Shown here piece after piece: positions 1,790 to 34,197 of a stretch of 36,811 nucleotides of DNA (its first letter is position 1; each line of letters opens with the position of its first letter). Made by a program: the position numbers and the translations under genes. This DNA is from a virus: the IMG/VR virus record IMGVR_UViG_3300042373_001555, positions 1 to 36,811 of that record; one strand, 5' to 3'. The notes beneath the pieces are model-generated. The model was not told where the DNA came from and searched no databases. It saw only the letters and a list, made by a program, of their open reading frames with translations.

Positions 1790-2821
1790 ATGAGTCAAAT
1801 TATAATAACTGAAAAACAATTGGGACTTATCACCAATAAAGTTTTAAGTGAACAAAAATCCAAAAAAGGAACCATTAATGAATCTTTATTTAGTTTTGAA
1901 AATATTTTAATGGCTGCAGGGTTTGTTCCTGTTGTTGGAGAAATTGCTGATATTGCTTTAATATGTTACTACCTCTATAAAGGTGAAAAATTATACGCAG
2001 CGTTAATGTTAATAGCGTTAATCCCAACCGTTGGTGATTTTATTGCTAAACCGATTATTAAATTATTCAAAGGGAGTGGAGGAGGAGCTGCGGCCATGAA
2101 AGCAGGAGGTAAAACATTAACAGAATATTTGGCAAAAAACCCTCAAATAGCTAAAAAGTTTAGTAGTTTAGGTAAATACGTTAAAGAACCTGCAGTTCAA
2201 AATACAGTTAAAGGAATTGAAAAAGTTAGTCCGGGGTTAGCGTCAAAATTAAGAAGTGGTTTAGATATGATTACTGGTAATAAAGCTTTAAGTGGAATTA
2301 AGGCAGGTGGTAAAGAGGTTATCGCAGGCGGAAGTTTCAAAACAGGATTAAAAGATTATTTCCAAGGACAAAGATTATCTAAGTATTTTGAAAAACGTGG
2401 TGTTCTACCTGAAACAGGCATTAAAAGATGGTGGTTGAATGTTGGAGCAAGACAAGATAGAAGAAATGCTTTTAGACAATTTATTGTGGCAAATAATTTA
2501 TTAGCTTACTTTGGAATACCATCATTATCTACTTTTGAAAGAAAATTATCAGATGATGCCGAATTTAGAAAAAAAGTTGCAGAAGACCCAAAAACAAGTG
2601 ATTATATCGCACAAAACTTTGAAAAAGGAGATATGGTGACAAAACAACAAACCCCTGAAACTACACCATCTAAAGAAGAAATTGACCAATACATTAAAAA
2701 TAGGAACTCAGGTAACTCTGCAAGTTCATTGTTTAATATGGGAAGTATTAATTTAAATAATAAAGACGGATTCTCAAATATTTTTACTACAATGTTTGGG
2801 GGTTCTCCACAAGTATCATAA
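1790..2821 (+). CDS. Leader-tagged protein with a hydrophobic pre-toxin-like segment
   Basis: The 343-residue product starts with the shared leader MSQIIITEKQLGLI, followed by an LSEQ site at about 19-22. Residues 37-85 form a hydrophobic, glycine-rich stretch with FVPVVGEIADIA and ALIPTVGDFIAK. This two-fold V/IPxVGD/E pattern resembles the membrane-associated pre-toxin (PT-TG-like) region of polymorphic toxins. The rest is basic and helical with a QQTPETTPSKEE linker. No toxin catalytic domain is recognised. It heads a run of three leader-tagged genes. I infer a virion-internal or membrane-acting protein; the function is unknown. Confidence 0.7.
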   Translation: MSQIIITEKQLGLITNKVLSEQKSKKGTINESLFSFENILMAAGFVPVVGEIADIALICYYLYKGEKLYAALMLIALIPTVGDFIAKPIIKLFKGSGGGAAAMKAGGKTLTEYLAKNPQIAKKFSSLGKYVKEPAVQNTVKGIEKVSPGLASKLRSGLDMITGNKALSGIKAGGKEVIAGGSFKTGLKDYFQGQRLSKYFEKRGVLPETGIKRWWLNVGARQDRRNAFRQFIVANNLLAYFGIPSLSTFERKLSDDAEFRKKVAEDPKTSDYIAQNFEKGDMVTKQQTPETTPSKEEIDQYIKNRNSGNSASSLFNMGSINLNNKDGFSNIFTTMFGGSPQVS

Positions 2822-2843
2822 AACTAAGTATAATAGTAAAAAT

Positions 2844-3209
2844 ATGGCAAAGAAAATTATAAAATTAACTGAAGGTGATTTAATGAATATCGTTAAAAGA
2901 GTCATCCAAGAACAGGATGAAAATTACAAAATTAATATCGCAATCCAATGTTTCTTAAATAAAAAAGGAATTAAAGATGATGCAGGACAATCATTAAAAT
3001 TAGATGGTAGTATCGGTAATTTACCTAACTCTAAAAGTGCTCAAGCAATTGCAAAATATCAATCAAGTATTGGTGTTGATAATGATGGAGTATGGGGTTA
3101 CGAGACTAATACTAAGATGACACCAAAAGATAAAATGATATACAAACAGTGTATTTCTGACCACGGAGACATAATTGATAAAGGAATGCATTTACTTGGA
3201 ATTGACTAA
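2844..3209 (+). CDS. Leader-tagged peptidoglycan-binding-like protein
   Basis: The start at 2844 places the leader IIKLTEGDLMNIVKRVIQEQ at the N-terminus; the longer frame from 2796 overlaps the previous gene and has no such match. Residues after about 30 look like a PG_binding_1 fold: a helix IAIQCFLNKKGI, LDGSIGNLPNSKSAQAI, AKYQSSIGVDNDG and VWGYETNTKM, matching the DGxxG...AIxxFQ...DGVxGxxT pattern. The 121-residue length fits one leader plus one domain. It could anchor virion material to the cell wall during entry. It sits 3 nt upstream of the DHH gene. Confidence 0.75.
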   Translation: MAKKIIKLTEGDLMNIVKRVIQEQDENYKINIAIQCFLNKKGIKDDAGQSLKLDGSIGNLPNSKSAQAIAKYQSSIGVDNDGVWGYETNTKMTPKDKMIYKQCISDHGDIIDKGMHLLGID

Positions 3210-10900: not shown

Positions 10901-11320
10901 ATGAATGCTAAAAGATACGTTGGGGTTATCGTTAAATGCGGTGACAAATTTTTAATCTGTAAAAGGAATGATGAATCATTAGGACAAGGTGAATGGTCAA
11001 TACCTGCAGGTAAAATTGAAGGGAGTGAAAAAATTGAGGAATCCGCAAAAAGGGAGTTTTTTGAAGAGACCGCCATAAACATAAATAACTTTGAATTAGA
11101 ATTTGCGGGGATAATACCAAGATATACTAGAGATGGTGGCAAAATGAAGGGATTGATGTACACTTATATTATTAATGTGGAGAAACAATTAACCCCTGAT
11201 TTGGAAAGGGCTATTGATGGTCATGAACACACGGCTTGGGGTTATTTTACCCTAAACGACATGAAAAATATGAAAATTAATACTTTTTTATATAAATTGT
11301 TCGAATTTATTTCAAAATAG
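10901..11320 (+). CDS. Nudix hydrolase
   Basis: The 139-residue protein has a near-perfect Nudix box: G37, E43, R51-E52 and E55-E56 within GKIEGSEKIEESAKREFFEE, with A58 in place of the usual glycine. The preceding WSIPAG is also typical. Nudix enzymes hydrolyse nucleoside diphosphates linked to another group, for example dNTPs, NADH or ADP-ribose; the substrate cannot be read from the sequence. In phages they are usually linked to nucleotide clean-up or ADP-ribose and cap chemistry. The reading direction leads into the tRNA and large-RNA block. Confidence 0.92.
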   Translation: MNAKRYVGVIVKCGDKFLICKRNDESLGQGEWSIPAGKIEGSEKIEESAKREFFEETAININNFELEFAGIIPRYTRDGGKMKGLMYTYIINVEKQLTPDLERAIDGHEHTAWGYFTLNDMKNMKINTFLYKLFEFISK

Positions 11321-20725: not shown

Positions 20726-20800
20726 GGGACAAATTTATTAAATTATTTTTTATTTTCCAATTTAATTTTGGTTTTTTATTTATAATTGTATTTATTATTA

Positions 20801-21397
20801 ATGAAAATCATAATCACAGAAGAACAATTCAGCAGATTCAATAGAAGTAGTCCTGCATTACAGAATGGGATTAATAAGTATTTGAATCAATACATAGAAG
20901 GTGGTACTAGAAAGATTGGTAAAAAATCTCGTAATTATGGTAATCTTAGTGAAGATTGGTGTATTGATGGAAAAAATACAATAAGTGTTTATTATAATTT
21001 TGATGTTGACGGTAATTTTAAAGATGGTTATTTATACCTTGATAGAGAACTTGTAAAAACTATATCTAAATTATTTAGTGTTAAACCAACATATGTTTTC
21101 CATGTTATTGAAGAATGGTACCAAGATGTAATGATTCCAAAGTTTGAACAAATGGTTGGAGAATCTGGATTATATGTTGATAAAATAGATACATCTGAAA
21201 GTGTAGATGATTGTGTTCCTGAACCTGAAAAACCTGAAGGTATTACAGATGATGAAATGATTGACTTTATTGTTAAAAATACTTTATATTCTAAACCTGA
21301 GGTATTACAAAAAATAGAATCTGGTGAAAGAGATCTTGAAGATTTTTATTTAGATGTTGTTGATGTTATTAATCGTAAAAAAATAACGGGATTTTAA
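20801..21397 (+). CDS. Leader-tagged hypothetical protein, 198 aa
   Basis: The ATG at 20801 gives MKIIITEEQFSRFNRS, the standard leader; a TTG five codons upstream is rejected. The body has NLSEDWCIDGKNTISVYYNF, a DGYLYLDRELVKTI segment and an acidic C-terminal region. No domain is recognised. The next gene, also tagged, starts 1 nt after the stop, so the two are coupled. Confidence 0.72.
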   Translation: MKIIITEEQFSRFNRSSPALQNGINKYLNQYIEGGTRKIGKKSRNYGNLSEDWCIDGKNTISVYYNFDVDGNFKDGYLYLDRELVKTISKLFSVKPTYVFHVIEEWYQDVMIPKFEQMVGESGLYVDKIDTSESVDDCVPEPEKPEGITDDEMIDFIVKNTLYSKPEVLQKIESGERDLEDFYLDVVDVINRKKITGF

Positions 21398-21398
21398 T

Positions 21399-21707
21399 AT
21401 GAAATACATTATTAGTGAAGAACAATTAACTAATGTTGTTAAAAAATTCAAAAAAGATGATGTTGATAGAGGTAAATTAGGTCATATTATTGAAAAACTT
21501 GTTTTAAGTTATTTTCAAAGGACTATTTGTGATGTGGTTGCTATATTCATACCTGATTTAGATGATTATATTGTTTTAATCTTAACACCCGATTATTATG
21601 GTGAGGAGACCACTACTAAAATCGCACGTAATATTGAAAATTATATTGGGATTAGTACAAATGTTATAATTACCCAATCACGAGATTGTGATAAGATGGA
21701 TAAATAA
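21399..21707 (+). CDS. Leader-tagged hypothetical protein, 102 aa
   Basis: It starts MKYIISEEQLTNVVKKFKKD. The remaining 80 residues form an alpha/beta pattern with LGHIIEKLVLSYFQRTICDV, YIVLILTPDYYG and YIGISTNVIITQSRD. Several small phage proteins share the layout of long helix plus beta hairpin plus helix. No function is assigned. It is directly downstream of another tagged gene. Confidence 0.7.
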   Translation: MKYIISEEQLTNVVKKFKKDDVDRGKLGHIIEKLVLSYFQRTICDVVAIFIPDLDDYIVLILTPDYYGEETTTKIARNIENYIGISTNVIITQSRDCDKMDK

Positions 21708-21955: not shown

Positions 21956-22894
21956 ATGAATAAAGTAATTAACCGATTAATTAATGATGCAACCCAAGGA
22001 GTCGATACATATAAAACCAAAGACTCGACATGGCTTATATTTACGGAAAGTAAAAGATGGGTAATCGAACTCACAAAGGGAGGTACTCTATGGTATAATT
22101 ATAATTTTTTTCAAGGAATATTGGTATACCTTTCAATGGATGTTATTGAAAATCAACACTATATTACCAAATGGGTTGAAGATAATGTTATAACTGGGGT
22201 GAAACGTATTAATGAGGACTACTCCGAAAATATTGAATTTGTTGAACACACCATTCAAAATGGGGTGAAAGACACCTATTCCAATTATGGTATTGGTATT
22301 TTTAGCGCTGATAAAGAAATAGTTGAACACACAATTCAAAATGGGGTGAAAGACATCCGAGTTTCAACTTATCAAAATACGTTTGCAGTTGAACACATCA
22401 TTCAAAATGGGGTGAAAGACACCGAAGTCGAAAATTTCGACTTCATTAAAAGCGTTGAAGATACCATTCAAAATGGGGTAAAACATACCGAATATGGTGA
22501 TTGGTTAGATGGTGATGAGAGATTTGATGATATCATTCAAAATGGGGTTAAAAAAACCCTAAGTGTGGAAGAAGGAACATTTACTTCTATTGGTTTTGGT
22601 GCTCACGTTGAAGACACATTACAAAATGGGGTAAAATATGTTGGCGGAATAGGTAATCCAAAGTGGGTTGGGAAAAAAGTTGAAGACACCATTCAAAATG
22701 GGGTTAAAGAAACAAAAATTGGTGCGCCTGATAATCGTGATTATTTTATTGAAGACGCCATTCAAAATGGTGTTAAACACACTGAAGCTGGTGGTTACTT
22801 AGGTTCTATAGAAATGAAAGGTAAAATAGTTCACCAACTTGAATCTCCAAAACAAAATGAGGAAGTTGAATATGTTATAGAAAATGGGGGTTAA
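21956..22894 (+). CDS. IQNGVK-repeat protein, N-terminal part (frameshifted)
   Basis: The first 75 residues form a domain (STWLIFTESKRWVIELTKGG, LWYNYNFFQGILVYLSMD, YITKWVEDNVI) shared with the gene at 23262. Then come eight clear units of the type V-E-D/H-T-I-Q-N-G-V-K-x-T, spaced by 10-25 variable, often acidic residues. A looser first unit is NVITGVKRI. The frame ends early at YVIENGG because of a run of five Gs (22886-22890); removing one G restores ENGVKHT and joins the following frame. The repeats may form a repetitive adhesive or binding surface. The start lies 4 nt after a -7 element, so the mRNA is predicted leaderless. Confidence 0.75.
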   Translation: MNKVINRLINDATQGVDTYKTKDSTWLIFTESKRWVIELTKGGTLWYNYNFFQGILVYLSMDVIENQHYITKWVEDNVITGVKRINEDYSENIEFVEHTIQNGVKDTYSNYGIGIFSADKEIVEHTIQNGVKDIRVSTYQNTFAVEHIIQNGVKDTEVENFDFIKSVEDTIQNGVKHTEYGDWLDGDERFDDIIQNGVKKTLSVEEGTFTSIGFGAHVEDTLQNGVKYVGGIGNPKWVGKKVEDTIQNGVKETKIGAPDNRDYFIEDAIQNGVKHTEAGGYLGSIEMKGKIVHQLESPKQNEEVEYVIENGG

Positions 22895-23180
22895 ACACAC
22901 TATTTGTTCAAGTGCACCGTTTGTTTATGGTGTTAAAGATACTTTACAACACGGCGTGAAAGAAACTTTTGATAAAACTCATCATAGAAGACGAGAAGTT
23001 GTCCGAACTATAAGAGATGGAATTAAAGAAACTTATGACGATACTTATCACCATAAAAGTAGGGTTGATGGTGTAATTAAAAATGGGATTAAACAAACCT
23101 GTGCTCAGATACCATCAATTCAACCTGTGGTAGAAAGAATACTTGAAGAAGGTATAATTCAGGACTCACAAGATTGTTAG
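22884..23180 (+). CDS. IQNGVK-repeat protein, C-terminal part in the +1-shifted frame
   Basis: It continues the same repeat: GVKHT, VYGVKDT, LQHGVKET, VVRTIRDGIKET, VIKNGIKQT and a final VVERILEEGII, ending DSQDC. The ATG at 22884 lies within the repeat and is unlikely to be a true start. Joined to the upstream frame the gene would code for about 408 residues with around 14 units. The split could be a real mutation, phase variation at the G run, programmed frameshifting, or an indel in the sequence. Confidence 0.7.
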   Translation: MGVKHTICSSAPFVYGVKDTLQHGVKETFDKTHHRRREVVRTIRDGIKETYDDTYHHKSRVDGVIKNGIKQTCAQIPSIQPVVERILEEGIIQDSQDC

Positions 23181-23671: not shown

Positions 23672-23989
23672 TTATGTGTGTTTAATAGTTTTACCTCTAT
23701 CAACTAGTGATTTAATGTTTGAACTTTTTTTAATTAACTTTAATATGCTGTTGAATAATGCGGTACTTTCTGGTAATGTGAATTTTGACGGTGATTTTCC
23801 ATCTCTTTTATTTTCGCAAAATTTCATAACTTCTTTTTTTGCTGAAAGCATTTTCAGTTTGTCTTTTGCGGTATTCATAATTTCACTACCATATAAATCC
23901 AAATAACCTAACACGGCTGAATATAAATCAGACGATGTTTGTTCTGTTATTATTCTATTAAATTGAGATTCGGTTATAATGTATTTCAT
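23672..23989 (-). CDS. Leader-tagged hypothetical protein, 105 aa
   Basis: The start is MKYIITESQFNRIITEQ, with ITE at residues 5-7 and again at 14-16. The rest is helical and basic (AVLGYLDLYGSEIMNTAKDK, KKEVMKFCENKRDGK), ending SLVDRGKTIKHT. No domain is recognised. The start lies 3 nt from the stop of the tagged leucine-rich-repeat gene on the same strand. Confidence 0.75.
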   Translation of the reverse strand: MKYIITESQFNRIITEQTSSDLYSAVLGYLDLYGSEIMNTAKDKLKMLSAKKEVMKFCENKRDGKSPSKFTLPESTALFNSILKLIKKSSNIKSLVDRGKTIKHT

Positions 23990-23992
23990 AGT

Positions 23993-24478
23993 TTATAAAT
24001 ATACCTCAGCTCCAATATTAACCATCGATCTAATTTCTTCTTCGGTGTATTTTTTGGAGATTGGAGTTTCTCTCAACCACAAATCAAGACCAACTGATTT
24101 AAGGTTTCCAAGAGATTTAATCGGAGTTCCCTCTAAATACAACTTACTTCCAACCGACTCAAGATCTCCAAGAGATTCAATTGAAGAATTATCCAAATCA
24201 AGATAACCTCCAACCGATTTAAGGTTTCCAAGAGATTTAATTTGTGATGCGACCAAAGTCAAATTACCTTCGACCGATTCAAGGTTTCCGAGAGATTCAA
24301 TCGAAGATTTTGCCAAATACAAATCACCGCTTATTCTATAAGGAGGATTATTTCTTTTTTTCAAAAATGATTGTAACATCTTCCATTCATTAAAATGAGC
24401 ATAAGGAATTGTTAGGATTTCTTCTTCTTCCTGTTCGGATATTAACTTATATTGTCTCTCGGTTATGATGTATTTCAT
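23993..24478 (-). CDS. Leader-tagged leucine-rich-repeat protein, 161 aa
   Basis: The leader MKYIITERQYKLISEQ is followed by EEEEILTIPYAHFNEW and about five 21-22-residue repeats of the form (I/L)xSLGxLxSVxGxLxLxxxxI, for example SIESLGNLESVEGNLTLVAS. These repeats form leucine-rich-repeat-like right-handed solenoids, as in some surface and effector proteins. The C-terminus changes to TPISKKYTEEEIRSMVNIGA. A paralogue at 36448 has the same domain without the leader. A binding role is likely; the partner is unknown. Confidence 0.8.
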   Translation of the reverse strand: MKYIITERQYKLISEQEEEEILTIPYAHFNEWKMLQSFLKKRNNPPYRISGDLYLAKSSIESLGNLESVEGNLTLVASQIKSLGNLKSVGGYLDLDNSSIESLGDLESVGSKLYLEGTPIKSLGNLKSVGLDLWLRETPISKKYTEEEIRSMVNIGAEVYL

Positions 24479-24581: not shown

Positions 24582-24917
24582 TTAACAATCTTGAGTGTTC
24601 TTATTATAGAAGTTTTCAATCTTCTCACCATACATATCCATTAGCTGATTAACAAAGGTTTCATAACCAATATGATCGATGATAAAATTTTCTTTATCAT
24701 CAATCTCAAAATTATCAGGTTCATATTGTTGGATAATATCCATAACCAAGCTGTCTATATATTTTTCTAATGTGGGGTAATAATCACAAAAATCAATATC
24801 TCCATAAAAGTCATCCGCAGCATCAATTATTTGTGATGCTTCACTCATAATATCTATTAACCTTCTTTTTAAACTAAGAATTTTATTATACTGAGATTCT
24901 GTGATAATATATTTCAT
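24582..24917 (-). CDS. Leader-tagged hypothetical protein, 111 aa
   Basis: It starts MKYIITESQYNKILSLKRRL and continues with a helical acidic domain, CDYYPTLEKYIDSLVMDIIQ, ending LMDMYGEKIENFYNKNTQDC. The last ~20 residues resemble the end of the protein at 33859 (IDMKYGERIKDYYNNNCEN), which carries the other leader type. The two seem to be one family with exchanged N-termini. Function unknown. Confidence 0.75.
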   Translation of the reverse strand: MKYIITESQYNKILSLKRRLIDIMSEASQIIDAADDFYGDIDFCDYYPTLEKYIDSLVMDIIQQYEPDNFEIDDKENFIIDHIGYETFVNQLMDMYGEKIENFYNKNTQDC

Positions 24918-25799: not shown

Positions 25800-26630
25800 A
25801 TGAACTTACAAGAGAATATAAATAGAATCAAAGAAATGATGGGGGTTATTACTGAAGGTAAAGACCCGAAAACAGGAACAGGTAAAAAACCTGAAGGTTC
25901 TGACAGAAGATTATATACAGATGAAAATCCAAGTGATACTGTATCAGTAAAGTTCAGAACAAAAGAAGACATTATTGACACATTAAATAAAGATAGTTTT
26001 AAATCAAAACCACATAATAGACAATCTCAAATAATAAATCTTATTCATCAAAGAGTAAGAGCGGCTTATCAGAACGCCAAAGACCCTGAAACAAAACAAA
26101 GGTTAAAAAGGGCTTATGATTATATTGAAAATGTAAAAGAAAAGTCAAAGGAAAAGACAATTAGATTACAGAAAGAAGGTTTGGATGATAAATGGACACA
26201 CGGAGAAGATACGGTTACATTAAAACAATTGTTGAAGATTACCAAAGATATTCCTGTAACCAAAATGTCAACTAAAAAACTTATGAAACATGCTCTTCAC
26301 GGGGATAATCCTGAGGAGATGAAAAAGGTTGACAAGACAAGTTTAAAATATCCTGTCCTTGTTTTGGTTAGTGATAAGGGTTTAATCAAATATATTCTTG
26401 ATGGTCACCATAGAATACAGAAGGCGAACAAGTATGATATCAAAATGGTCAATGTAAAGTTAATTAAATTCAGTGAACTACCTAAAAACTTTAAAAAAGT
26501 TTTGGGTGGAGAGAAAGAAGAACAAACCGAGGGCGAACTAACCGAGAGGTGTTGGAAAGGATATACTCAAAAGGGTATGAAGACAATGTTTGGTAAGAGA
26601 TACCCAAACTGTGTAAAGATAAAGAAATGA
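25800..26630 (+). CDS. ParB-like protein with type-B leader and CWKGY tail, 276 aa
   Basis: Residues 1-19 are the second leader type (MNLQENINRIKEMMGVITE). A polar, Lys-rich region follows. Residues 184-225 (YPVLVLVSDKGLIKYILDG, HHRIQKANKYDIKMVNV) have the DGHHR-centred core of ParB/Srx-type domains, which often have nuclease or NTP-binding activity. The tail has LTER-CWKGYTQKGMKTMFGKRY and PNCVKIKK, a CWKGY...PNCV module known at the ends of many phage proteins. An LTE site sits just before it. It overlaps the next tagged gene by ATGA. I infer a virion-packaged DNA-acting protein. Confidence 0.75.
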   Translation: MNLQENINRIKEMMGVITEGKDPKTGTGKKPEGSDRRLYTDENPSDTVSVKFRTKEDIIDTLNKDSFKSKPHNRQSQIINLIHQRVRAAYQNAKDPETKQRLKRAYDYIENVKEKSKEKTIRLQKEGLDDKWTHGEDTVTLKQLLKITKDIPVTKMSTKKLMKHALHGDNPEEMKKVDKTSLKYPVLVLVSDKGLIKYILDGHHRIQKANKYDIKMVNVKLIKFSELPKNFKKVLGGEKEEQTEGELTERCWKGYTQKGMKTMFGKRYPNCVKIKK

Positions 26631-27151
26631 AACTACAAGAGAATATAAATAGGATTAAGGAAGTGATGGGGTTAAACGAAGTGTTTGATGACATCAAAGG
26701 GGTTCCGTTATATCATAAGACTTCAACAAACAGAGGATTAGATATAATCAATAGTGACGCATTAAGAGCGGGTTCATTACCATCAGGAGATTACTTATCA
26801 TACGACAAACGATTAGCCAGAACAAAACATCAAAACGCAATATCCTTTACAAGAGATAAAAATTGGGTACCAGGTTATACGATAGGAATAGGATTGGAAT
26901 CACCTTTGGAAGATTCAAATATGACCTTTGTTGTCGATAGAAATAAATTAAAAACAAAGTATAGGGTCGAACCATTCAATTACCAAGGAATTGAACCTGA
27001 TTACGAACATCACAAGAAGAACGATGAATTGGAAGAACGTGTGATGACAAATGAAATATACCCATTACATCGTTATCTTATTGATATTATTTACACGGGG
27101 AATGACCCTGAAGTACAACAGCAAATAGACAATTATCTAAAAAATAATTAA
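26627..27151 (+). CDS. ADP-ribosyltransferase-like protein with type-B leader, 174 aa
   Basis: The leader MKLQENINRIKEVMGLNE is 80-90% identical to that of the upstream ParB-like protein. The domain then shows LYHKTSTNRGLDII (YH at 29-30), RTKHQNAISFTRDKNW (SFTRD at 73-77), TFVVDRNKLKTKYRVEP and ELEERVM (134-140), with a terminal PLHRYLIDIIY. This order of a YHxT strand, ISFTRD and an ExE-like element near the C-terminus resembles ADP-ribosyltransferase-fold families found in phages. T4 Alt, an ADP-ribosyltransferase, is packaged and injected, which would fit a leader. The family call is from motif reading only. Confidence 0.55.
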   Translation: MKLQENINRIKEVMGLNEVFDDIKGVPLYHKTSTNRGLDIINSDALRAGSLPSGDYLSYDKRLARTKHQNAISFTRDKNWVPGYTIGIGLESPLEDSNMTFVVDRNKLKTKYRVEPFNYQGIEPDYEHHKKNDELEERVMTNEIYPLHRYLIDIIYTGNDPEVQQQIDNYLKNN

Positions 27152-27640: not shown

Positions 27641-28594
27641 ATGAAAGATTTAATTTTTATTACAGCTTTTTGTCCAACAGAAGAACAAGAAAGAGTTTTG
27701 GAAAAATGTGTTGATTCGGTTTTACAATGTGGTAAAGATATTGCATTAATATCTCATTCACATATACCAATACATATTCAAAAAAAATGTCAATATTATC
27801 TTTATGACCATCTAAATGATACGTCCGATGATTATAATTTATTAGGGCATAATCATTTCAGTTTTAATAATCAAAAAATACAATCAAGATTTTTTAGTAA
27901 AACATTTTATGGATTTGCAATTTATAGAATGTTTTCAATGGTAAGTCAAATTGCCATAAATTTTGGATACGACAATATTCATCATATTGAATATGATTGT
28001 GAGTTATTAGATAAAACTTTGATTGATAAAAATAGTGATTATCTTAAAGAATACGATTCTGTTATATGTACAGATAATGGTAAAAAAGATGGATTTCTTT
28101 TTGGTTCCTTTAAGTCTTTTAAAGTAAGTTCATTACCTGAACATTTTAAAAACTATAATAGAGATTTCATTGAAAATGAAATGAAAGTACTTGAGCCAAA
28201 ACAATTAGAATTCTTTACAAAAAATCTTTTCATGAATAACGGAAAGGTATTATTTCAAAATGAACCATCTGAGGATAAATTCAAAAGAGGTAAGGCATTT
28301 TACAATAGAAATTTACATTACACATTATATTACAACCCAATTGATTTAACCTTAAACATTTTTTATAATTCAATAAATGACAATGAAGAAAATATAGTTG
28401 TTATTGTTAATAAAGAAAAAGTAATTAATATTTCGGTTAAACCAAATCATTGGCATATAAGAAGTTTGGGAGTTTTTGACAATATAAATCATGTAAGAAT
28501 AGACAATTTAAAAAAAGTTATATATGAAAAAACATTTGATGATAAGTTTAGAGAGGTTTTTAAAATAAAGGCATACATAATGGATATTGAATGA
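27641..28594 (+). CDS. Glycosyltransferase-like protein, 317 aa
   Basis: The N-terminus MKDLIFITAFCPTEEQ, a region LEKCVDSVLQCGKDIALISH and a DxD-like HIEYDCELLDK segment resemble nucleotide-sugar-dependent glycosyltransferases that extend surface glycans. The SVICTDNGKKDGFLFGSFKS region also fits. The C-terminal third is beta-rich. It is the first gene of a four-gene operon; the stop overlaps the next start by 4 nt. Donor and acceptor cannot be read. It could glycosylate virion or host-surface material. Confidence 0.6.
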   Translation: MKDLIFITAFCPTEEQERVLEKCVDSVLQCGKDIALISHSHIPIHIQKKCQYYLYDHLNDTSDDYNLLGHNHFSFNNQKIQSRFFSKTFYGFAIYRMFSMVSQIAINFGYDNIHHIEYDCELLDKTLIDKNSDYLKEYDSVICTDNGKKDGFLFGSFKSFKVSSLPEHFKNYNRDFIENEMKVLEPKQLEFFTKNLFMNNGKVLFQNEPSEDKFKRGKAFYNRNLHYTLYYNPIDLTLNIFYNSINDNEENIVVIVNKEKVINISVKPNHWHIRSLGVFDNINHVRIDNLKKVIYEKTFDDKFREVFKIKAYIMDIE

Positions 28595-29418
28595 AAAAAA
28601 TAATAAATTTCACACCAACAGGAACTCAAACCACAAGGAGTAATTCATTTGCACCATTAACACCAAATGAAATAATTGATTCAGTTTATGAGGCAAACGA
28701 GATTGGAATATCTATTGTTCATTTACATGCAAGAGATGAGGTTACATTAGAGAATACCTACAAGAAAGAAGTATATCAAAGGATAATAGAGGGGATAAAA
28801 ATATATTGTCCTGAACTATTAATTTGTGTATCATTAACGGGAAGAAACTTTCCTGAGTTAGAAAAAAGGTCGGAGGTATTACAATTATATCCTGACATGG
28901 GTTCACTAACAATGTCATCATTAAACTTTCCATCAGGGACATCAATCAATCAACCTGAGATGATATTATCTTTAATCAATGAGATGGATAAGTATGGGGT
29001 TCAACCTGAGATAGAATGTTTTGATACAGGGATGTTAAACTATACAAATTACATTATTTCAAAGAACATATTACAGCCACCATATCACATCAATATCATA
29101 TTAGGAAACATGTACAATGGTCAATGTGATTTGGGTACCTTATCAACAATCAAAAACAATCTACCATCAAACTCATTTACCTGTTTGGGTGGAATAGGTT
29201 CACAACAACTAAAGAGTACAACATACGGGTTATTAGATTTTGATGGAATTAGAATCGGGTTGGAAGATAATCTATATTACAAAGATAAGGTAAAGACAAC
29301 AAATATGGAGTTATTAAAACGTGCCCATAGGATAATGAATGAGTTGGACATGAAACACTATACATCAAAAGAATTAAGAGAAAAAGGATATGGCAACAAA
29401 ATTATTAATATTAGGTAA
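28591..29418 (+). CDS. BKACE (beta-keto acid cleavage enzyme, DUF849) family protein
   Basis: The 275-residue protein has INFTPTGTQTTR at the N-terminus and SIVHLHARDE with H44 and H46 as the likely zinc ligands. Further in are GSLTMSSLNFPSG, a VQPEIECFDTGML region and GIRIGLEDNLYY near the end. These fit the BKACE family (3-keto-5-aminohexanoate cleavage type), which condense or cleave a beta-keto acid with acetyl-CoA. The length matches the family (about 270-310). BKACE is rarely expected in a phage. It overlaps its neighbours by 4 and 29 nt, suggesting a joint pathway with the acyltransferase and aminotransferase. Confidence 0.88.
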   Translation: MKKIINFTPTGTQTTRSNSFAPLTPNEIIDSVYEANEIGISIVHLHARDEVTLENTYKKEVYQRIIEGIKIYCPELLICVSLTGRNFPELEKRSEVLQLYPDMGSLTMSSLNFPSGTSINQPEMILSLINEMDKYGVQPEIECFDTGMLNYTNYIISKNILQPPYHINIILGNMYNGQCDLGTLSTIKNNLPSNSFTCLGGIGSQQLKSTTYGLLDFDGIRIGLEDNLYYKDKVKTTNMELLKRAHRIMNELDMKHYTSKELREKGYGNKIINIR

Positions 29419-30043
29419 GGGGGATAATAACATTACGATGATATTGGATAACTTGTATTCACATAATACAAGACAACCTGATATTCACGTATACAATAAT
29501 TTGAATCTACCAATCCTAAACACATTTGAACATGATAGATTTAATATTGAAATGTTTAACACGGTCAATATGGATGACTACGACTTGATGGCTCTTGGTG
29601 TATATCAACCATCACATAAGATAAAAATCGTGGAGACATTAAATCCTGATAAGAACAAATTCATGAATATAATTCATGATGGTTTGGATATCTCTTACAC
29701 GAGTAAACTTGGTCGTGGACTTCTAATCAATTCAAAGGTATCAATTGCCGCACACACGACCATAGGAGACTTTGTATCAATCAACAGACATGTTTCCATA
29801 GGTCATCATACAAACGTCGGTGACTATTGTTCTATCAACCCAGGAGTTAACATTGCGGGAAACGTAACCATAGGAGAAGGAACAACAATAGGAATAGGTG
29901 CAAATATAATTGACGGGATAAAGATAGGAAAGAATTCCATAATAGGTGCAGGTTCAGTTGTAACAAAAGACATTCCCGATAATGTAATTGCTTACGGTAA
30001 TCCATGTAAAATAATTAGAGACAATGAAACACAATCCATATAA
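29390..30043 (+). CDS. NeuD/PglD-like acyltransferase (left-handed beta helix), 217 aa
   Basis: An N-terminal Rossmann-like part (ATKLLILGKGDNNITMIL) precedes a left-handed beta-helix of hexapeptide repeats from about residue 110: TTIGDFVSINRHVSIGHHTN, VGDYCSINPG, VTIGEGTTIGIGAN and NSIIGAGSVVTKDIPDN. This layout is that of the sialic acid O-acyltransferase NeuD and the sugar acetyltransferase PglD, which acylate amino or hydroxyl groups on nucleotide sugars. It overlaps the BKACE gene by 29 nt and the next gene by 20 nt. The N-terminal part is longer and less typical. Confidence 0.82.
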   Translation: MATKLLILGKGDNNITMILDNLYSHNTRQPDIHVYNNLNLPILNTFEHDRFNIEMFNTVNMDDYDLMALGVYQPSHKIKIVETLNPDKNKFMNIIHDGLDISYTSKLGRGLLINSKVSIAAHTTIGDFVSINRHVSIGHHTNVGDYCSINPGVNIAGNVTIGEGTTIGIGANIIDGIKIGKNSIIGAGSVVTKDIPDNVIAYGNPCKIIRDNETQSI

Positions 30044-30617
30044 GATAGTACAAATGTTTGAGGAGGAGATTGCCGAATATACGGGAGCTCCATACGCAGT
30101 GGCATTAGATAATTGCACTGATGCATTATTTTTATGTTGTACATACTTGAATGTGGAACATGTTACAATACCTAAGAAGACTTACTTATCGGTTCCACAG
30201 GCTGTAATGGCATCAGGGGGAAAACTATCTTTTGATGATGTGGAGTGGAAAGGGTTGTATCAATTAAAACCATACCCAATTTATGATTCAGCAAGAAGAT
30301 TCACTTCAAATATGTATATACCAAATACATTCATGTGTTTATCGTTTCATCCCAAGAAGACACTAAAAATGAGAAAGGGTGGAATGATTCTAACTGATAA
30401 TGAAGAGGCATACAAATGGTTTAAGAAAGCAAGACACGAAGGTAGAGATGAAATACCATATACCCAAGATAATATAAAGTTTATGGGATGGAATATGTAT
30501 ATGACACCACCTGATGCCGCAGAAGGATTGTGGTTAATGTCGTCAATGCCAAAGGATAATGAAGATACAATAGAGGATTATCCTGACCTAACAAGAAATG
30601 ATTTATTCAAATTGTAG
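30024..30617 (+). CDS. DegT/DnrJ/EryC1/StrS aminotransferase, half-length
   Basis: The 197-residue product has the N-terminal half of the PLP-dependent sugar aminotransferase fold: FEEEIAEYTGAPYAVALDNC, TDALFLC, IPKKTYLSVPQAVMASGG, YPIYDSARRF (D88, PLP nitrogen) and SFHPKKTLKMRKGGMILTDN, where K111 or K112 would be the PLP lysine. Family members are usually around 370-400 residues, so the C-terminal domain is missing. It may be a natural minimal form, as the stop is followed closely by the next promoter, or a truncated gene. It may aminate the substrate of the acyltransferase upstream. Confidence 0.8.
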   Translation: MKHNPYKIVQMFEEEIAEYTGAPYAVALDNCTDALFLCCTYLNVEHVTIPKKTYLSVPQAVMASGGKLSFDDVEWKGLYQLKPYPIYDSARRFTSNMYIPNTFMCLSFHPKKTLKMRKGGMILTDNEEAYKWFKKARHEGRDEIPYTQDNIKFMGWNMYMTPPDAAEGLWLMSSMPKDNEDTIEDYPDLTRNDLFKL

Positions 30618-30914: not shown

Positions 30915-31355
30915 TTATCTAAAACTATGTGTATAAGACAATGCGTTCGTATTGAATACTCCATTTATAATAGTCAATAAAGGTACACTCCAAACATCCA
31001 CACTTCCAAACAAACTCTCAAGCCTTTCATACATCTCATCAGATAATATAATGGTATCAAACTCTTTGTTATTTATATTAGGGGGATTATAACAAGGTTC
31101 AGGTAAATCACCTTTAAGTTCGGAAGGGTAATCACCATCATCATCGTAGTACTTACTATTAACCAATTTAAATAGATAATCGTTATATTCACTATCAGGT
31201 AGAACAAACCCTACAGCATAAGGGTCACAACAAACACCCATACCACAGTTAAATTCAGCCCAATCATAATAAGAATCATCAAATCCTTCAAATGACATAT
31301 TAATGTAGTTGTGAATGACTTTAGTAAGTTTAGATTCTGTGATGGTTACTTTCAT
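30915..31355 (-). CDS. Leader-tagged hypothetical protein, 146 aa
   Basis: The start MKVTITESKLTKVIHNYI is a leader variant with ITE at 5-7. The body has DWAEFNCGMGVCCDP, a tyrosine- and aspartate-rich acidic middle, IILSDEMYERLESLFG and a beta-rich end. The CGMGVCC cluster could bind metal. No family is recognised. It is followed on its 5' side by the long structured non-coding stretch. Confidence 0.7.
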   Translation of the reverse strand: MKVTITESKLTKVIHNYINMSFEGFDDSYYDWAEFNCGMGVCCDPYAVGFVLPDSEYNDYLFKLVNSKYYDDDGDYPSELKGDLPEPCYNPPNINNKEFDTIILSDEMYERLESLFGSVDVWSVPLLTIINGVFNTNALSYTHSFR

Positions 31356-33824: not shown

Positions 33825-33858
33825 ACCCTTTTTTTAAACCCCATAGTATTTATTGAAT

Positions 33859-34197
33859 ATGAATCTACAAGATACCATAAGAAAAGTTCTTAAAGAAGAA
33901 ATTAAATCATCTCTCAAACTTAGACGAGTGTTAAGTATGTTGGATTATGAGGTTGAATATAGATTAAGTTCAATTTATAGACCAGATAACATATGTAGAT
34001 ATGAGAGTGGTGAAGAATTATTGGATGTGGTAGGTGAGGCCGCAATTGACTCAATGTATTATAAATATTTTGGTAATATGGATGATACTTCAAAAGAATG
34101 GGAAAGAACATATTATGATATGGTCCATTATATTGATATGAAATATGGTGAAAGAATAAAAGATTATTATAATAACAATTGCGAAAATAAAGTTTAA
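33859..34197 (+). CDS. Type-B-leader hypothetical protein, 112 aa
   Basis: The ATG at 33859 gives MNLQDTIRKVLKEEIKSSLK, related to the MNLQEN leaders at 25800 and 26627, with an LKE site. The body has VLSMLDYEVEYRLSSIYRP and ends IDMKYGERIKDYYNNNCEN, similar to the end of the type-A-tagged protein at 24582. The gene is flanked by duplicated terminators and 27-bp direct repeats, so it looks like an insertable single-gene cassette. Function unknown. Confidence 0.7.
   Translation: MNLQDTIRKVLKEEIKSSLKLRRVLSMLDYEVEYRLSSIYRPDNICRYESGEELLDVVGEAAIDSMYYKYFGNMDDTSKEWERTYYDMVHYIDMKYGERIKDYYNNNCENKV

Follow-up and report, generated by a model that had tools for sequence, protein, structure and literature searches.

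The stretch analysed here, 36,811 nucleotides from a virus (positions 1 to 36,811 of IMG/VR virus record IMGVR_UViG_3300042373_001555; hereafter the window), carries at 26627..27151 a gene for a small predicted ADP-ribosyltransferase (ART) whose first 18 residues resemble the propeptides by which T4-type phages target proteins to the capsid (Table 1). Its start codon overlaps the stop codon of a ParB-like gene in an ATGA, the ParB PHROG itself matching that upstream open reading frame (ORF) with an E-value of 0.11 only. The two proteins begin almost alike, as had been pointed out in an earlier reading of the letters alone (hereafter the sequence-only reading): the leaders LQENINRIKEVMG of the ART and LQENINRIKEMMG of the ParB-like protein are one residue apart, and in a six-frame scan of the window these two genes hold the only copies. 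The motifs YHKT, ISFTRD and ELEERV, which had suggested an ART in the first place, do follow one another in that order, at residues 29-32, 72-77 and 134-139. A Nudix gene is also present, as reported (10901-11320; PF00293, E = 5.5e-16), about 15 kb from the ART gene and without such a leader; the part in processing ADP-ribose that had been suggested for it is drawn from co-presence alone.

By sequence the ART protein has few acquaintances. It has no match in Pfam at E≤1 and none in PHROGs or NCBIfam; searches of annotated phages gave no match to it and none to the leader alone, the ART core by itself giving weak matches only (best E = 2; Bacillus phage SP-15, 27% identity, E = 3), and neither of two scans through bacterial and archaeal genomes turned up a relative. 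The ART-like fold was nevertheless borne out, as a prediction, by comparison of an AlphaFold2 model (predicted local distance difference test 78.5, predicted template modelling score 0.75, 74 residues at 90 or more; strands at residues 27-32, 72-76, 99-104, 114-117, 136-139 and 151-156) with known structures, Tpt1/KptA and DarT leading both structure lists. In VIA, which is a second look over Foldseek's list, so that families outside that list could still match, the top rows are Tpt1/KptA (7yw4, Z 9.0, root-mean-square deviation 2.4, 98 aligned residues; 8tg6, Z 8.7); DarT stands at Z 8.5 (7yk3) and 8.1 (7omw), many other ART toxins come after, and most of the listed rows are ART-superfamily proteins by title. 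The best Foldseek match in the PDB is DarT (7omv, E = 0.015, probability 0.95), and 17 viral models match under 1e-3, unnamed or uncharacterised but for one ASCH-domain annotation, among them proteins of Dickeya phage vB_DsoM_JA11, Agrobacterium phage Atu_ph07 and Bacillus phage SP-15. A profile search of PDB sequences put DarT1 first (E = 0.28) and DarT next (E = 1.5), marginal values or worse, aligned on YHxT, while a search of the same database with the three closest sequences only returned unrelated matches. In the model, the triad positions appear to be filled by His30 on strand 1, Ser73 or Thr75 on strand 2, and Glu136 at the start of strand 5; as modelled, the protein sides with Tpt1/DarT among the ARTs and is not a homologue of Alt.

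A first IMG/VR search yielded homologous ORFs at 12 loci, one of which (L012) matches mainly via the leader, and a profile search of IMG/VR widened the family to 42 loci; close relatives, a three-motif DNA pattern and the profile search together take it down to about 22% identity. In an alignment of 25 loci of this larger set (A4), from which near-identical loci were omitted and in which long proteins were trimmed to the domain, Y29, H30, S73, T75, R76, K78, E134, E136 and Y150 are invariant, giving the family pattern YH / SxTRxK / ExE. Glu136 is proposed as the catalytic glutamate because of the strand order in the model, and is favoured as such by a further relative (L208:3144-3707, record G019) that, by eye, keeps E136 and not E134. 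Pfam gives marginal matches to Tox-ART-HYD1 in 7/25 of the aligned relatives (best E = 3e-4) and to DarT in one (E = 7.1e-3). Some family members are longer, L139, L140 and L182 measuring 468-670 amino acids, and in L138, L152 and L155 a SET-like domain, recognised by eye, lies N-terminal to the ART, and an IDE site marks the point where the two meet. L020, which is leader-tagged too and has a YHKS motif, was considered as a further ART and dropped, its profile comparison with the family giving a probability of 4.5%.

The leader recurs on many other proteins. When a degenerate leader pattern, running through the MG, was scanned over IMG/VR viral contigs, it matched 73 contig stretches and 89 ORFs, or 67 distinct proteins; because it starts at residue 3 in 66 of these 67, the recurrence is beyond chance. 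Removal of proteins under 50 residues, and of those with more than 40% of their 4-mers in common with a protein already kept, left 44 non-redundant, otherwise unrelated cargoes, in all but one of which the leader starts at residue 3. It is 18-19 residues long, with the consensus M[NK]LQENIxRIKExMG; M1, L3, Q4, E5, I7, R9, I10, K11, M14 and G15 are invariant among the 44 and E18 is nearly so, most residues through G15 being preset by the search pattern and E18 lying outside it. Conservation among the cargoes ends at that glutamate. The profile matches of the cargoes, many of them sub-threshold, include P-loop kinases, ParB, GNAT, deoxyribonucleotidase and ART-PolyVal. As to a promoter common to leader genes, TATAAAT occurs in the 45 upstream bases of 3/52, two of which are one gene in sister contigs, and is therefore not a common feature of them.

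The glutamate at which conservation ends belongs to a known cleavage motif. According to part of one account of T4 (PMC9026906), the prohead protease gp21 cuts after L/I-X-E, the internal proteins carry propeptides of 10-19 residues that are capsid targeting sequences (CTS), and Alt sheds a propeptide of seven residues. The Alt sequence itself begins MELITE. For T4 IPIII, replacing the Glu by Asp is reported to block the cut. Among the 44 leaders, 42 have [LI]xE within five residues of the MG, compared with 3.5% of 7446 windows taken from cargo bodies. The leader of the window ART ends in LNE18, INE being the commonest ending, and since the final Glu is residue 18 or 19 of almost every one of the 44, it is the motif that is kept rather than the spacing. 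The relatives of the ART carry other leaders, of about 7 to 19 residues (MIKLVDILNE, MIRLIDLLRE, MKLINLIE, MKNLIRKILKE, MNLQEQISRIQSMMGVISE), and in 23/25 of them YH follows the last [LI]xE at a distance of 5-11 residues, the other two being L199, which has VTE, and L138, which was trimmed just past its IDE. To judge from these sequences, the motif follows the ART enzyme and not the leader sequence. In a sample of 529 non-redundant ORFs of leader-bearing phages, after removal of ORFs with LQE-type leaders and of near-duplicates, [LI]xE is enriched 2.53-fold at residues 7-22 over residues 31-100 (282 of 8464 vs 488 of 37030; p = 2e-32). No such enrichment is seen at residues 7-22 for [LI]xD (0.78), [VMF]xE (0.83) or [AGST]xE (0.88), and a control of lambda, T7 and half of phi14:2 (126 ORFs) gave 1.33-fold for [LI]xE (p = 0.25).

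The head genes that such a leader would call for are found in related genomes. Among 26 leader-bearing records, mainly long contigs, picked from 85 loci (L001-L012, L014-L086), 13 contain both an S77 prohead protease and a gp23 capsid protein; of the 14 that reach 200 kb, 12 do. The order of the head module looks like terminase-portal-protease-scaffold-capsid, with protease and capsid recognised by profile and the rest by position. The gp23 propeptide ends in (L)INE/A (the slash marks the cut) at about residue 60 in 12/13 sequences, and in VTE/T in the other; this length of some 60 residues is near the 65 of T4 gp23. Record G012, the contig of L037, has both S77 and gp23 and also holds a leader-tagged orthologue (L171) that is 70% identical to the window ART. 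In G019, which has a T4-type head module, a span of about 4 kb encodes three ART-like proteins with leaders: one belongs to the window ART family, and the other two match ART-PolyVal at E-values (2.6e-4 and 1.9e-5) that fall short of the curated cut-off. Because the head genes are seen in relatives and not in the window record, the link between leader and head runs via relatives. A further record, G007 (269 kb; L124, L134), has two T4-type head modules that differ from each other and are separated by some 200 kb, and may be a hybrid, a satellite or an assembly artefact.

These observations suggest, with a probability that we put at about 0.68, that the window protein is a head-packaged, protease-processed and injected ADP-ribosyltransferase, Alt-like in deployment only. 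The ART fold, the conserved motifs, the common leader with its cleavage motif and the T4-type head genes of related genomes come out of the computations; packaging, cleavage, injection, activity and target we infer as follows. The amphipathic N-terminal leader (residues 1-18) would dock the ART into the prohead core, and an S77 prohead protease of the gp21 type would cut after Glu18 (LNE/V), leaving an enzyme of about 156 residues in the maturing head. The freed ART would then be ejected along with the DNA and, at the start of infection, ADP-ribosylate a host macromolecule in an NAD+-dependent reaction, catalysis probably depending on His30, Ser73/Thr75 and Glu136. Given the resemblance to Tpt1 and DarT, a nucleic acid would be at least as likely a target as a protein.

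Several points weigh against this interpretation. The leader region of the AlphaFold2 model is of low confidence, and Foldseek found nothing in the PDB under 1e-3. The 25 aligned ART relatives share kinship and are not independent samples. Among the 44 leaders, L041 has no cleavage motif and L036 has V at P3, and the window leader contains two more [LI]xE sites, LQE5 and IKE12. The enrichment sample is biased to the neighbourhoods of leader genes, and near-whole records show a smaller excess (G019, 87/244 ORFs vs a body rate of 0.257; G021, 109/317 vs 0.199); moreover, [LI]xK is enriched too, 1.69-fold, so that helix composition accounts for some of the N-terminal signal. The window record is a 36.8-kb fragment in which no head genes were seen. 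In the remaining 13/26 leader-bearing records, which include G022 (208 kb) and G025 (274 kb), no S77 or gp23 was found and capsid and portal searches were empty. Lastly, the scaffold protein was considered as a bearer of the same leader and ruled out, the scaffolds having none.

The last two points also favour an alternative in which the leader is another N-terminal localisation or assembly tag, such as one that takes its cargo to a site of replication or to a membrane, with the ART at work within the infected cell. We consider it unlikely, because the leader ends in the exact L/I-X-E motif, as given in part of PMC9026906, and so matches the INE/A end of the capsid propeptide, and because a localisation tag would have no need for a motif that is near-fixed before the ART domain under quite different leaders. 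Improbable, too, is a Tpt1/KptA-like RNA 2'-phosphotransferase or RNA-repair enzyme in place of an ADP-ribosylating effector: Tpt1/KptA structures do top the VIA list, but the structural match spans just a core of 85-98 residues, and assignment to this group by sequence family was rejected, the window protein having no Pfam match at all and the 25 relatives none listed to Tpt1/KptA. In Tpt1 an Arg precedes the His of the first motif, whereas the window protein has Tyr at this place, and the leader-bearing companions of the ART resemble accessory effectors. That the leader is a mobile DNA cassette of start codon and first codons, spread by recombination and devoid of peptide function so that only the ART domain matters, is very hard to credit, for although leader genes are often adjacent and have start-site sequence in common, synonymous codons differ at the fixed leader residues, the bases upstream of the ATG differ, and [LI]xE is kept despite a one-residue shift in spacing.

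The injected enzyme that we favour resembles T4 Alt in being a predicted ART with a short propeptide that ends in [LI]xE and in being predicted to ride a T4-type head into the cell, and differs from it in size (about 156 residues after the leader, against 682 amino acids), in its YH first motif and in its Tpt1/DarT-like fold rank. Alt, for its part, works by R-S-E chemistry. Of the "Alt-like injected effector" of the sequence-only reading, the delivery therefore stands as a prediction, on the strength of a leader that resembles the capsid-targeting propeptides of T4-type phages and ends at a prohead-protease motif, and the kinship with Alt does not. Membership of the Alt family (PF03496, ADPrib_exo_Tox) was rejected, Alt matching at 5.8e-36 and the window protein not at E≤1, and hhalign of A4 with T4 Alt gave a probability of 0.1%. 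The internal proteins of T-even phages are described, in part of PMC3012670, as a diverse set in which only the CTS is conserved. With T4 IPI-IPIII the present system shares the use of a single short leader, with a gp21 motif at its end, for diverse cargoes, but the sequence and length of the leader are different here, several families of leader seem to occur side by side, and many of the cargoes are enzyme-like. The likeness to DarT lies in the best Foldseek match in the PDB and the best PDB profile match, and extends to a detail reported in part of PMC11543638, namely that the Tyr of H-Y-E in DarT2 is replaced by Ser in DarT1; the window ART has Ser73 at that place. It is set apart from DarT by its predicted propeptide, by the lack of a PF14487 match of its own, although one of the 25 relatives matches at 7.1e-3, and by the lack of an identified antitoxin (DarG macrodomain or NADAR) in a Pfam scan that covered part of the window proteins. 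Phage ARTs have been judged to be often head-packaged from MuF fusion, gene neighbourhood or Alt-like context (PMC9503650); in the part of that survey that bears on polyvalent and packaged ARTs, a processed N-terminal leader is not used as evidence, and the window protein has no PHROG match. Packaged ARTs are thus already known (T4 Alt; PMC9503650, in part), and what would be new here, with the logistics unchanged, is another ART lineage, other leaders and an apparently much larger cargo set.

How far this extends is a separate matter. We give an even chance to the broader proposal that related large T4-type phages use interchangeable capsid-targeting leaders to load tens of accessory enzymes, several ART families included, into every virion. 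Those leaders seem to comprise LQENIxRIKExMG, KYIITESQ, IRKxLxEE, KIIxLTESDL and others, many of them ending in [LI]xE and some coming with a matching C-terminal tail. If this is true, a leader and its [LI]xE could be read straight from a genome as the mark of an injected protein, hypothetical proteins of uncultured large phages would become testable early-infection effectors, and there would be a family of small injected ADP-ribosyltransferases unrelated in sequence to Alt. A literature search by leader strings found no published report of these leaders, and a search of the literature on capsid targeting in a jumbo phage or Bacteroidetes context listed none on such leaders by title; the listed works that join capsid targeting sequence, ADP-ribosyltransferase and phage concern, by their listing, T4, SPN3US and P22.

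Other recurring N-termini, apparently further leader families, head several window ORFs (KYIITESQ, KIIITEEQ, KKIIKLTEGDL...RVIQEQ and NLQDTIRKVLKEE), a number of them with [LI]xE. A conserved C-terminal tail, [LI]TE-[RK]CWxGYTQKGMKTMFGKxYPNCVKKKK, is common to 12 distinct protein ends, the majority of them on proteins that are leader-headed as well: the end of the ParB-like gene in the window (26538-26630) and 11 others, for example L143, L016, L033 and L018. In several it comes directly after an [LI]TE site, which recalls the C-terminal processing of T4 Alt (PMC9026906, in part). In G019 (L204-L211), about twenty of the 87 ORFs counted above form one scattered paralogous family, MEKEKLKRIFEFLE, with the start MEKEKLKRIFEFLEEK, whose status is uncertain.

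Table 1. Features of the window around and beyond the leader-tagged ART gene
Feature	Position	Strand	Remarks
Leader-tagged ART gene	26627..27151	+	ATG start; 174 amino acids plus stop
Predicted capsid-targeting propeptide of ART, MKLQENINRIKEVMGLNE, predicted cut after Glu18	26627..26680	+	Common to 44 cargoes; [LI]xE end
Predicted ART domain, residues 25-160	26699..27106	+	AlphaFold2 model; VIA and Foldseek matches to Tpt1/KptA, DarT
Motif 1, YHKT; Y29 and H30 invariant in 25	26711..26722	+	Strand 1; alignment A4, predicted secondary structure
Motif 2, ISFTRDK; S73, T75, R76 and K78 invariant in 25	26840..26860	+	Strand 2
Motif 3, ELEE; E134 and E136 invariant in 25	27026..27037	+	Start of strand 5
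Upstream ParB-like gene, same-type leader MNLQENINRIKEMMGVITE, C-terminal tail after LTE	25800..26630	+	phrog_17560, E 1.5e-7
Predicted capsid-targeting propeptide of upstream gene, residues 1-19	25800..25856	+	Same protein as L015, from a sister contig
ORFs with other recurring N-termini	1790-2821, 2796-3209, 20786-21397, 21399-21707, 33853-34197		
ORFs with other recurring N-termini	23672-23989, 23993-24478, 24582-24917, 30915-31355	-	

Elsewhere in the window, a protein of 1615 amino acids was compared with NCBIfam as a possible clue to the host and had no match there. An adjacent metabolic trio lies at 28591-30617, made up of BKACE (PF05853), a hexapeptide transferase and a DegT/DnrJ aminotransferase, the last a partial match. 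Two ORFs at 21956-23180 are built from many degenerate VEDTIQNGVKxT-like units.
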